Part shown: in pieces, positions 37,948 through 44,418 of the stretch
Layout: each line of letters starts with the position of its first letter
How positions within the stretch are numbered: the stretch's first letter is position 1
DNA from: Streptomyces aurantiacus
GTDB lineage: Bacteria > Actinomycetota > Actinomycetes > Streptomycetales > Streptomycetaceae
Length of the DNA: 64,000 nt
Direction of reading: 5' to 3'
NCBI RefSeq assembly: GCF_001418335.1
Contig: NZ_LIPP01000096.1
Span: 1-64,000, forward strand
Program-made: the position numbers and the translations under genes
Notes under the pieces: generated by a model
Seen by the model: only the letters and a program-made list of their open reading frames with translations
Database searches by the model: none
Told to the model about the DNA's origin: nothing

Positions 37948-38036
37948 GAAAATTGGAAATCTCGAAGCGTGAGGAGAGGGGCCGCCGCTCCACTGTGGCG
38001 GTAAGGGCGCCGGCGGCAGGACCCCTCCCTCATGGC

Positions 38037-38052
38037 GGTAACAGCTGTTACC
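38037..38052. promoter_or_regulatory. Palindrome GGTAACAGCTGTTACC, TA operator
   Basis: Perfect 16-bp palindrome ending 8 nt before the antitoxin ATG. Ribbon-helix-helix antitoxins bind such sites in their own promoters. Confidence 0.75.
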
Positions 38053-38060
38053 ATGCTGGC

Positions 38061-38300
38061 ATGGCGAAGACACAGCTGGGCGCGCGCGTGAATGAGGATG
38101 TCGCTGAACTCGCGAAGAAGCGCGCTGCCGACCTCGGGTTGAGCATCGGGGACTACTTGGCCAGGCTGGTGGAGGACGATGCCAGCGGCCTGCGCACCCG
38201 AGCCGTGGGCGCGGCGACCCGCTTTCTGGCCGAACACCAGGCGGTCTTCGACCAAGCCGAACAGGCCCAGCAGACGTCCCGGGGAGCACACGCGGCCTGA
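38061..38300 (+). CDS. Ribbon-helix-helix antitoxin-like protein
   Basis: 79 residues: KTQLGARVNEDVAELAKKRA and DLGLSIGDYLARLVEDD form the strand-helix-helix core, with a C-terminal helical tail (AATRFLAEHQAVFDQAEQAQ) that would contact the toxin. Its TGA overlaps the toxin ATG by one base. There is no Shine-Dalgarno next to ATG 38061; the gene may be leaderless or poorly translated, with the palindrome covering the promoter. Confidence 0.85.
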   Translation: MAKTQLGARVNEDVAELAKKRAADLGLSIGDYLARLVEDDASGLRTRAVGAATRFLAEHQAVFDQAEQAQQTSRGAHAA

Positions 38301-38677
38301 TGGACCTGCACATCGACGTTCCCTGGATCCTCCAGGTCGCGGAGGCCGCCGGAGCGGACGATCCGGCTCCCGACGACTACGGGGTCCCCGTCTCGGCAGT
38401 CGCCCGCCACCGGGCCGAGCTGTTCGAGCAGTCCGTCTACGACGGCCCCTACGCCAAGGCCGCCGCCCTGGCGCACACGCTGGGCCGGTGCCGTTGGCTG
38501 GAGCGCTCCAACCTCGCCGTCGCCGCCGCTTCTGGCGTCATGTACCTGGAAGCGGCGGGTATTGCCGTCAAGCCCGCCCGCGAGGATGCCGTCGCCCTCA
38601 AGGACCTGCTCCTCGACCCCACCTGCACAGCTGGGAAGATCGCCGCGCTGCTGCGGACCTGGCCCACCGCCACCTGA
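38300..38677 (+). CDS. Fic-family toxin-like protein lacking the Fic motif
   Basis: 125 residues: LHIDVPWILQVAEAAG, YGVPVSAVARHRAELFEQSV and KAAALAHTLGRCRWLERSNL, then VAAASGVMYLEAAGIAV. It matches the Streptomyces group annotated as Fic-type TA toxin (DV-PWLL, RSN near the middle). The HPFxxGNGR active motif is reduced to LERSNLAVAAASG, without the His, so AMP- or phospho-transfer is doubtful. Translation is coupled to the antitoxin. It could have a different activity or be dead. Confidence 0.75.
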   Translation: MDLHIDVPWILQVAEAAGADDPAPDDYGVPVSAVARHRAELFEQSVYDGPYAKAAALAHTLGRCRWLERSNLAVAAASGVMYLEAAGIAVKPAREDAVALKDLLLDPTCTAGKIAALLRTWPTAT

Positions 38678-38938: not shown

Positions 38939-39449
38939 TGACCAGCCGGCGGTCACCGAGGAGGCGAACTGCGCCAAGGGAGTGCTGCACCGGCACTTCA
39001 CCGACTTCGACGCTTTCCTGGCGGAACTGATCCTCGACCGCGTCCGCGGCATCGAGGACCGGACCACGACTCTGCGCGCGGCCGCCGGCACCGGGAGCGT
39101 GGTGGACAACCTCGTCGACGCACTGCAGGACTTGTTCGGGCCGGTCACGGTGGCGATCGTCGCGCTCATCACCTTCCGCGACGGCCTTCGCGCCCGGCTG
39201 CGCGAGGCCGGCCTGACCGGCATCCCACTGGCCATGCAGGGCACCGCCATGATCGCCGCATACCTCACCGCCGAGCGGAAGTTGGGGCGTCTGGCCGGTG
39301 ACGCCGACATCGACACACTCGCCCCCACCCTCGTCGGGGCCGGGCACCTGCTGTTCGCCGACCGGACAATCGCCCCACCGCAGACCGCCGCCGTCCGCAA
39401 GATGGTGACCACCGTCATCGCCGGCGCCTTGCGACCACCCCCATCGTGA
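38939..39449 (+). pseudogene. TetR-family regulator lacking its N-terminus
   Basis: The frame enters in the DNA-binding domain: VTEEANCAKGVLHRHFTDFD, then FLAELILDRV and the ligand domain with PVTVAIVALITFRDGLRARL. Helices 1 and 2 and the start are gone. A GTG at 38982 could start a 155-residue protein without a DNA-binding domain. Confidence 0.75.
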
Positions 39450-39701
39450 CCTGAGCACCCAGGCCACCCGTCGCCGCCCGCCCCTGTCCCCAGATCTGGT
39501 ACGCCTCCGCAGCGAACTCTGTCCGCAGGCTAAGCGGTCGGCTCCGGAAGCGTTTCGGGGTTGACCGAGGTAGGGGCGGGCTGTCCCCCAGCAGACAAAC
39601 AGGCCCTCCCGTCTGGCGGCTCTGTGATCATGTGCCAGGGGAAAGGGCTGGTCGGAATGATGATCGTTCTGATGGCCTTCGGTCGGCCGTGATCCAGTCC
39701 A

Positions 39702-39748
39702 AGGAGGTGAGACCCATGGCCGCAGTACTCGTATGGGTCCTCCCTCCT
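39702..39748 (+). promoter_or_regulatory. Hairpin sequestering the leader ORF ribosome site
   Basis: AGGAGG (39702-39707) and GACCC (39711-39715) can pair with CCTCCT (39743-39748) and GGGTC (39735-39739), with a 3x3 internal loop and a 19-nt loop carrying the ATG. Six plus five base pairs would hide the Shine-Dalgarno. Confidence 0.6.
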
Positions 39749-39775
39749 GCCGCCACGGTCGGGCGATCTGCGTAA
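39716..39775 (+). CDS. 19-residue leader peptide
   Basis: MAAVLVWVLPPAATVGRSA. The AAGGAGG 8 nt upstream is among the strongest ribosome binding sites in the window. It ends 51 nt before the hydrolase start. The coding part supplies the pairing partner of its own Shine-Dalgarno, so translation of the peptide would melt the hairpin. Small size means the call rests on that site and on the pairing. Confidence 0.55.
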   Translation: MAAVLVWVLPPAATVGRSA

Positions 39776-39826
39776 GCGTTGCCGGGAGCGCCTCGAAACT
39801 CAGACACTCCCGAAAGGCAACATGCC

Positions 39827-40591
39827 GTGAACACTCTGCACTTCACCGCCGAAGCGACCTCCAACGGCATCGTCGAGCGGGACTTCACCGTAAACGGCGT
39901 CCCCGGTGTCCTCCGGTCCCCCGAACCTGGTGTGGAACGTGCGCCTTTGGTCCTGATGGGCCACGGCGGCGGCAACCACAAGAAGCACCCTGCGATGGCA
40001 GGCCGCGCTCGCTTGCTCGTGAACGGTTGCGGCTTCCACGTCGCGGTCATCGACGCGCCCGGTCACGGTGACCGGCCGCGCACGGAGCATGACGAGGCGG
40101 AGATCGCCGCGCTGTTCGCGGCGCGGGCGGCCGACGAACCGGAAGGCCCGATCGCCGTCCGCTACAACGACCACCTGGCGAAGCTCGCCGTGCCCGAGTA
40201 CCGGGCGCTCCTGGACACCCTCCAGGAGCGCCCGGCGGTCGGCATCGACGACCCGGTCGGATTCTGGGGCATCAACATGGGTACCGCGATCGGCGTGCCG
40301 TTCGTGGCGGCGGAACCCAGGATCACGGCTGCGGTCTTCGGCCAGCACTGGCCCGATCTCCTGGCCGAGAAGGCGAAGCAGATCACCGTCCCGATCGAGT
40401 TCGACCTGCAGTGGGACGACGAGCACATCTCTCGTGAGGAAGGTCTCGCGCTGTTCGATGCCTTCGCCTCCAAGGAGAAGCCCCTGCATGTGAACTCGGG
40501 CAAGCACAGGGAACTGCCCCGGTTCGAGGCCGACAGCGCGATCCGGTTCTTCGCCCGGCACCTCGGCAGCGCGGTCACCTCGCCGGCCTGA
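39827..40591 (+). CDS. Alpha/beta hydrolase-like protein, Ser nucleophile replaced by Asn
   Basis: 254 residues from GTG 39827. Seen: ERAPLVLMGHGGGNHKKHP (oxyanion-type loop), VIDAPGHGDRP, and the nucleophile elbow GFWGINMGTAIG, where relatives have GxSxG. Codon AAC (Asn) replaces AGC, a one-base change. The acid and His could be DLQWDD and SGKHRELP. Without Ser it is unlikely to be an esterase; it could bind ligand or be a mutant. A hairpin-gated leader ORF is just upstream and a strong terminator just downstream, so it forms its own unit. Confidence 0.82.
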   Translation: MNTLHFTAEATSNGIVERDFTVNGVPGVLRSPEPGVERAPLVLMGHGGGNHKKHPAMAGRARLLVNGCGFHVAVIDAPGHGDRPRTEHDEAEIAALFAARAADEPEGPIAVRYNDHLAKLAVPEYRALLDTLQERPAVGIDDPVGFWGINMGTAIGVPFVAAEPRITAAVFGQHWPDLLAEKAKQITVPIEFDLQWDDEHISREEGLALFDAFASKEKPLHVNSGKHRELPRFEADSAIRFFARHLGSAVTSPA

Positions 40592-42943: not shown

Positions 42944-43000
42944 ACCACACCGTCGTTGTGGACCCCTTCCGAAATCCTTGGCACGACCGTGAGGACTGCT

Positions 43001-44418
43001 GTGAGCGAGCCGATCATTGTCGTAGGTGCGGGCCCCGTGGGGCTGACGGCCGCGTTGGAGCCGGCCAGGCATGGGGTGCCGGTGCGGATCGTGGACCGGT
43101 CGCCCGAGCCGACCACCGAGTCGCGCGCCATCATCGTGCACGCTCGCAGCCTGGAGATGTTCGAGCGGCTGGGATGGACCATCGCGCAGACCGAGACCGA
43201 GCGCATTCTCACCAAGGCGCTCGCCGAATACAGCGTCACCGTCGAGCGCGGGGTGACCCTCGCCGGCCTGACGCAGCACGAGTACGGTGTCCGGGTGGTG
43301 CTAAAGCACGCCGACGAGACCCACGAGTCCGCCCGAACCGGCTGGTTGGTGGGCGCCGACGGCGGGCACAGCCGGACACGTCAGATGGTGGGCAGCGCAC
43401 TGGCCGGGAAGTTCAAGGGCGAGAAGTTCCTGATGGGCGACGTGAACGCCGCCCACCACCTCGACCCGCACACCATGTACACCTTCTTCTCGCCGCACGA
43501 CGGACCGCTGCTGGTCTCCCCCATGCAAGGTGACCGGCTGCGGCTGATCGCGAACACATCCACCGACGAGCAACGCACCGCCACCCAAGAGTGGCTGCAG
43601 CAGGTGGTGGACGAGCGCGCCGAGCACCCGATCCGGATCCGCGACGCGCGCTGGCTCACCGTCTGCGAGGTGCACCACGCCCAGGTGCCCGAGTACCGGG
43701 CCGGCCGGGTCGTGCTGGCCGGCGACGCGGCGCACGTGCACAGCCCCGCCGGCGGCCAGGGCATGAACACCGGCATCAAGGACGCCCACACAACCTCGCC
43801 TGGAAGCTCACCCTGGTCAGTACCGGCCAGGCCCGCCCGGCCATGCTGGACAGCCACCACGCGGAGCGCCACCCGGTCGGCGCCCAGGTGATCCGGTTCG
43901 CCAGCACACTGACCCGGGTCGGCACCCTCGCCGAGCCGGTCGCGCAGAAACTCCGCAACAAAGGGATGCACCTGCTCACCGGCCTCGCCCCGGTCCGCCA
44001 GGCGATGGCCGACCGCACGGAGGAGACCGCCGTCTCGTACCGGAAGAGCCCGATCGTGGTCCACGACCGGGGCCGCGGCGACCTGCACGCCGGCGACCAC
44101 CTCCCCGCAGCCGGCCCGGAGCTGCGCGCGGCGCTCGCCGAAGCACACGAGCACGTGCTGCTCACCGTGATCGTCAACGGCCCCGCACCGGCACCGGTGG
44201 GCATCGTGACGGCACGTCAGCTACTGGTCGGCGCGACCGCAGCGGCCCCGTCCGGTTACGACGCCGTGTTCCAGGACCCAGACGGCGTGACGGCCGCCCG
44301 CTACGGCCTGCCGAACGGCGGTCGGATCATGGTCCGTCCGGACGGCTACGTCGCCGCGATCGCCCCGCTGGACGAGGACGAGCCCCTGCACAGGTACCAA
44401 GCGCTGCTGCAGGCATAA
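43001..44418 (+). pseudogene. FAD-dependent monooxygenase, internal deletion and frameshift
   Basis: Class A flavoprotein hydroxylase: PIIVVGAGPVGLTAALEPAR, LVGADGGHSRTRQMVG and AGDAAHVHSPAGGQGMNTGI. Two faults. First, FERLGW runs directly into TIAQTETERILTKAL, so about 35-40 residues of the substrate-domain loop usually found here are missing. Second, an extra CA near 43790 (CACACAACC) shifts the frame; the other frame continues NLAWKLTLVSTGQARPAMLD to a normal end at 44418. GTG 43001 has GAGGA upstream. Read without the CA the product would be about 470 residues. Substrate class: aromatic polyketide or phenol (inference). Confidence 0.82.

Follow-up and report, generated by a model that had tools for sequence, protein, structure and literature searches.

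The leader upstream of the alpha/beta hydrolase gene in the window (the whole 64,000-nt stretch of Streptomyces aurantiacus DNA analysed here) is one piece of a larger family. It is almost certain that a widespread actinomycete RNA leader family of this kind exists, and it appears to be undescribed. We propose that its members are cis-acting, ribosome-mediated translational attenuators, which would sense a ribosome stalled at the start of a leader ORF and then permit translation of a gene for stress or repair, in one subfamily an extra copy of IF-1; we put the probability of this reading at roughly 0.58. The earlier note on this DNA had suggested a translation-gated switch. It seems to have named the right class, but the hairpin it described is only one half of a two-hairpin attenuator. 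The hydrolase Shine-Dalgarno sequence lies under the other half, a second hairpin, and the two have an alternative pairing partner in common. The outer stem P1, the second hairpin (39778-39821) and the alternative pairing between the hairpins were absent from that description.

Architecture of the window leader

The sequence elements AGGAGG (39702-39707), GACCC (39711-39715), GGGTC (39735-39739) and CCTCCT (39743-39748) were all present as first noted, and so was a 19-codon ORF ending 51 nt 5′ of the hydrolase GTG at 39827. The leader's own Shine-Dalgarno is, as proposed, hidden by pairing with its own coding sequence, and the start codon takes part in this pairing too. The parts of the leader are collected in Table 1.

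Table 1. Predicted parts of the leader and the regulated gene; positions are those of the window.
Feature	Position	Strand	Remarks
WblC/WhiB7-type box and -35 (GAAA-GGGC-TGGTCG)	39641-39654	+	-10 poor in window copy
P1 outer stem, 5′ arm CCGUG	39687-39691	+	partner 39754-39758
Segment 1: perfect Shine-Dalgarno AGGAGGUGA (39702-39710), GACCC (39711-39715), leader AUG (39716-39718)	39702-39718	+	
Putative leader ORF, 19 codons (MAAVLVWVLPPAATVGRSA) and TAA (39773-39775)	39716-39775	+	ATG at 39716
Segment 2, window GGGUCCUCCC, family consensus GGGUGCUCCC	39735-39744	+	inside leader ORF
P1 outer stem, 3′ arm CACGG	39754-39758	+	encloses first hairpin with 5′ arm
Lower stem of hairpin 3:4, 5′ arm GUUGCC	39778-39783	+	partner GGCAAC 39816-39821
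Segment 3, CGGGAGCGCC	39783-39792	+	just past leader stop; pairs with segment 2 or 4
Segment 4 (ACUCCCG), main Shine-Dalgarno GAAAGG (39812-39817), lower stem 3′ arm	39806-39821	+	
Regulated gene: alpha/beta hydrolase, GTG start, 254 aa	39827-40591	+	51 nt past leader stop

The GGAGGTG of segment 1, which is complementary to 16S, and the CCC that follows were invariant in all 42 aligned leaders. The second hairpin, GUUGCC-GGGAG...CUCCC-GAAA-GGCAAC, contains and hides the GAAAGG of the hydrolase. The first hairpin folded at -26.5 kcal/mol (z = -2.3), and 8 of 200 shuffles were equally good, so the single-sequence fold is only moderately unusual. We consider this hairpin real because of the comparison across genomes: dozens of them retain the region, often without the hydrolase, with hardly any variation in the ORF, the Shine-Dalgarno or the pairing segments. 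No terminator-like U run or terminator-like site was found in the window leader, and a Rho-independent terminator past the uORF, of the wblC/whiB7 type, is absent from it.

The closest solved structure to the hydrolase was the esterase 4ao6 (E 3.6e-31). Its matches to Pfam hydrolase families were weak, and its homologues share the same start position. Elsewhere in the window, we observed a TetR-like ORF (38982-39449) with no Pfam match, whose DNA-binding start is seemingly missing, and two short adjoining plus-strand ORFs (37953-38677) that are antitoxin-like and Fic/Doc-like by eye. An ORF for a FAD-binding monooxygenase (42956-44418) stops early, with the C-terminal half (HNLAWKLTLVSTG...) in another plus-strand frame and an apparent frameshift near 43785.

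Distribution of the family

A covariance model, R1, built from 42 leaders, matched 128 of 150 genomes of the genus Streptomyces and 113 of 395 genomes of the class, the latter spread over 42 of 137 genera; in a phylum-wide sample it matched 15 of 396 genomes. Among 60 relatives searched at the DNA level, the leader was conserved independently of the hydrolase. A pattern scan of GTDB genomes returned at least 119 records; among the matches listed, 80 of 80 were actinomycetes or actinomycetote MAGs. These records covered at least 27 named genera, including Streptomyces, Nocardia, Micromonospora, Amycolatopsis, Arthrobacter, Rhodococcus, Mycolicibacterium and Kribbella. The genome that holds the window also carries a second strong copy, 5′ of a rifampin monooxygenase gene (L062, G000:C27:69998-70140), and a weak copy 5′ of a PrmC-like gene (L064, G000:C152:27615-27744).

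The absence of a tie to known riboswitches, as claimed earlier, agreed with our searches of Rfam 15, which gave nothing relevant at gathering and relaxed thresholds and no match for the window leader at E up to 10. We found no description of the leader family in searches that reached the open literature and a minority of subscription papers.

Pairing of the four segments

Pairing was counted by column in 71 dissimilar leaders, the alignments having been fitted to a model with P1, 1:2 and 3:4 but no 2:3. The outer stem P1 was paired in 90.4% of cells, with 30 cells changed on both sides (0/500 shuffles), and in many members G-U pairs are among the changes. Within fixed windows, permutation of the P1 arms had the wrong sign, which probably stems from variable loops in the windows. 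Hairpin 3:4 was paired in 92.5% of cells, of which 5 were changed on both sides (0/500 shuffles). In its lower stem, matched arms beat permuted ones, with 0 of 2000 permutations as good, and 74 of 5000 in a small dissimilar subset. Arm covariation had been named earlier as the check on the proposed hairpin: it is clear in the outer stem, but the arms named at that time are mostly too invariant for testing (4-bp core). Permutation of arms favoured the true partners, a result that relatedness could account for.

The alternative pairing 2:3 was formed in 97.7% of cells, compared to 43-69% when the segments were slid against each other. It varies hardly at all, so its covariation is weak and too slight for a convincing test. 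The case for it comes from two conserved positions. C144 of segment 3 (A4 column) pairs with G64 of segment 2 in 66 of 68 leaders in the 2:3 arrangement, and is paired in only 13 of 61 in 3:4; G64 is bulged in 1:2 and paired in 2:3. The conservation of C144 and G64 is left unexplained by the other pairings. Consistent changes were also seen in single members (GGGCGC with GCGCC, GGGUGC with GCACC, CUCUC with GAGAG). As predicted from the sequences, 2:3 is mutually exclusive with both 1:2 and 3:4.

In segment 2 of the window copy, a C replaces the conserved G. This substitution breaks one pair of 2:3 (about -14.7 vs -20 kcal/mol) and strengthens 1:2. With its poor -10 as well, the window copy looks weakened; its inducibility may be lower than that of its relatives, or it may be in decay.

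The leader ORF

An in-frame stop codon, 20-46 nt past segment 2, was found in 186 of 188 AUG/GUG leaders, compared to 0 and 30 of 188 in the other two frames. A divergent subfamily of 27 leaders, formed by the PrmC class and four hydrolases, has NUY start codons instead (AUU in 18, AUC in 6, GUU in 2 and GUC in 1). The in-frame stop was kept in 26 of these 27, with 3 and 0 in the other frames, which brings the leaders with the stop in the expected place to 212 of 215. NUY starts with a conserved frame were noted in L261, L263, L265, L266, L270 and the PrmC class (L064, L269-L289). Retention of the stop behind such starts suggests that the leader frame is probably translated, and the short ORF with its own Shine-Dalgarno would be a translated one throughout the family. 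The argument for initiation at AUU, AUC, GUU and GUC is strong but indirect, drawn as it is from comparison of sequences.

Segment 2 (core GGGUGCUCC) starts 18, 19 or 20 nt past the start codon in 196 of 215 leaders. It is read in all three frames, as WVLP, GCS or GAP. With the stop and the spacing kept and the core read in three frames, it is the RNA and the length of the ORF that are conserved, and not the peptide over the core. The changing frame of the core motif led us to reject a conserved arrest peptide, and a drug-dependent arrest peptide of the erm type is likewise at odds with a segment 2 that is read in three frames. Amino-acid attenuation was also rejected, since no run of a single amino acid is kept and the targets are not biosynthetic.

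Target genes and promoters

Almost all distinct leaders (213 of 215) sit 5′ of a few gene types. These are alpha/beta hydrolase (113), rifampin monooxygenase (44), PrmC-like N5-glutamine methyltransferase (23; TIGR03704), GNAT (20, L291 included), patatin (11) and the IF-1 paralogue alone (2; L033 and L034). The monooxygenase representative scored 830 bits with NF033145, for which the cut-off is 800. The RimI-like GNAT gene is followed by the IF-1 paralogue at each of the 20 GNAT loci; the loci with this second IF-1 gene include L032, L044, L046, L047, L059, L068, L138 and others. The paralogue was additional to the housekeeping IF-1 in 5 of 5 such genomes tested. The window genome, which is without the GNAT class, has one IF-1. 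Members of the family precede five unrelated transcription units, namely hydrolase, monooxygenase, GNAT with the IF-1 paralogue, PrmC-like and patatin.

A tree of 124 leaders, many of whose branches are weak, required a minimum of 17 changes of gene class and placed L033 (IF-1) among the GNAT leaders with starred support. Both observations point to a probable exchange of the leader between genes. At the monooxygenase genes, a rifamycin-associated DNA element is also a candidate.

We searched for WblC-type promoters as GAAA-N4/5-TKG, a 15-19 nt spacer and TANNNT, following the published consensus (PMC7157823). The pattern was present in 92 of 187 AUG/GUG leaders, in none of the shuffles and in 0 of 27 NUY leaders, and its -10 ends about 6 nt 5′ of P1. 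The window copy has the WblC-type box and no TANNNT -10. The WblC/WhiB7 regulon of S. coelicolor comprises 288 activated genes and has been described as transcriptional (PMC7157823); half of the AUG/GUG leaders have a promoter of its GAAA-N-TKG-TANNNT form. Translation inhibitors elicit the WblC/WhiB7 response, and the uORF of WblC/WhiB7 itself acts as an attenuator of transcription (PMC11550727, PMC10727445). Further modulation of the regulon at the translational level has only been suggested (PMC12421871), and the leader family is a candidate for such a layer.

Proposed mechanism and alternative explanations

By default, 1:2 and 3:4 would form and the main gene would be off. A ribosome translating through the ORF would end at a stop 35-42 nt past segment 2, over the base of 3:4; hairpin 1:2 could close behind it and 3:4 would form on its release, keeping the gene off. 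If a ribosome is instead parked on the leader start codon, for example by drugs that block the first elongation steps, it would cover segment 1. Segment 2, just beyond the front edge of the parked ribosome, could then pair with segment 3 as the latter leaves the polymerase, segment 4 would stay free and the main gene would be translated. In this scheme, the leader would read the position of the ribosome and not the identity of the peptide, and in many members the attenuator would be layered over WblC/WhiB7 transcriptional control. Lincosamides, streptogramin A and pleuromutilins bring about start-codon stalling on published Streptomyces uORFs; such stalling was shown for are5scL1 and tiaAL (PMC12421871).

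State modelling of 209 leaders with ViennaRNA gave 1:2 (11.6 bp) and 3:4 (8.6 bp) in nearly all free RNAs. With the start codon occupied and the nascent RNA ending past segment 3, 2:3 formed with a mean of 7.4 bp. At full length with the start occupied, 2:3 prevailed over 3:4 in the NUY leaders (6.6 vs 2.3 bp), whereas 3:4 prevailed over 2:3 at equilibrium in the AUG/GUG leaders (8.4 vs 0.75 bp); for the latter class, release would therefore need to be kinetic. The sensing step is inferred, and equilibrium folding agrees with it only for nascent RNA and for the AUU-type subfamily. An erm-like mechanism is plausible as a co-transcriptional switch.

In the equilibrium model, the main Shine-Dalgarno of the AUG/GUG class stayed closed when the ribosome was stalled at the start. 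Such a ribosome lowered the mean cost of opening the main Shine-Dalgarno by only 0.25 kcal/mol. With the ribosome near the leader stop, which lies a few to about 15 nt ahead of segment 3, the drop was 2-3 kcal/mol. This is the best argument for translational coupling, in which a ribosome reaching the stop would melt the base of 3:4 and the main gene would be initiated, with 1:2 limiting the frequency. The leader would then be a gate for translation capacity, on when translation is healthy. We regard coupling as unlikely: it leaves the conserved 2:3 complementarity and the fixed start-to-segment-2 spacing in three frames without a reason, the distance of about 45-60 nt from leader stop to main start is long for reinitiation, and a WblC stress promoter is a better fit to a gene switched on under inhibition.

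It is quite improbable that the perfect Shine-Dalgarno serves mainly as a landing site for 30S, whereby a sensor of small subunits or initiation factors would set the balance of 1:2 and 2:3, whether or not initiation follows. The invariant GGAGGTG, the NUY starts in 27 leaders and, in one subfamily, an operon that includes the IF-1 paralogue would suit such a site, yet the in-frame stop is kept even behind the NUY starts. A metabolite riboswitch, or a protein-bound 5′ UTR with an incidental ORF, would account for a conserved, structured leader with a covarying P1. We find it very hard to reconcile with the lack of an Rfam match to the window leader, the conservation of ORF and stop, and unrelated targets without an obvious common metabolite. 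Finally, inverted repeats near the promoter and TetR-like ORFs nearby could point to a DNA operator for a repressor such as the neighbouring TetR, but this is scarcely credible given that the G-U pairs in P1 are tolerated by RNA and not favoured by a DNA palindrome, that the repeats lie downstream of the predicted transcription start, and that the leader precedes unrelated genes.

The preferred reading, the attenuator that senses a start-stalled ribosome, resembles the erm/cat attenuators (ermC, ermB) in its leader ORF, its four segments with 1:2 and 3:4 opposed to 2:3, its hidden main Shine-Dalgarno and the lack of a terminator. It differs from them in that the peptide is not conserved over segment 2 and the spacing points to a start-codon stall, and also in the unrelated targets, the NUY starts of one subfamily and the outer stem P1. 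The wblC/whiB7 and are5sc/tiaA attenuators of Streptomyces likewise employ a uORF in the same translation-stress network; they are described as working by terminator and anti-terminator in transcription, each for its own gene, whereas here no terminator was seen in the window leader and one RNA family stands before several unrelated transcription units. An AUU start codon is found in infC, a regulated translation gene. The NUY leaders have AUU in common with infC, but here the odd codon begins the leader ORF and the set includes AUC, GUU and GUC.

Implications

We tentatively suggest, as a possibility we rate below even odds, that the family is a peptide-independent sensor of initiation-arrested ribosomes, a cassette moved among unrelated actinomycete genes, with a NUY branch and a GNAT/alternative IF-1 branch. 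If so, the NUY branch would respond to start-codon selection, which is the domain of IF3 and IF1, while another branch would place a RimI-like acetyltransferase and an alternative IF-1 jointly under its control. The leaders with AUU, AUC, GUU and GUC starts would form a natural set for the study of start-codon selection, and the second IF-1, the PrmC-like methyltransferase and the rifampin monooxygenase would be given testable roles. A direct translational checkpoint would be added to the WblC/WhiB7 translation-stress response of actinomycetes, which could explain differing drug responses among parts of the regulon.
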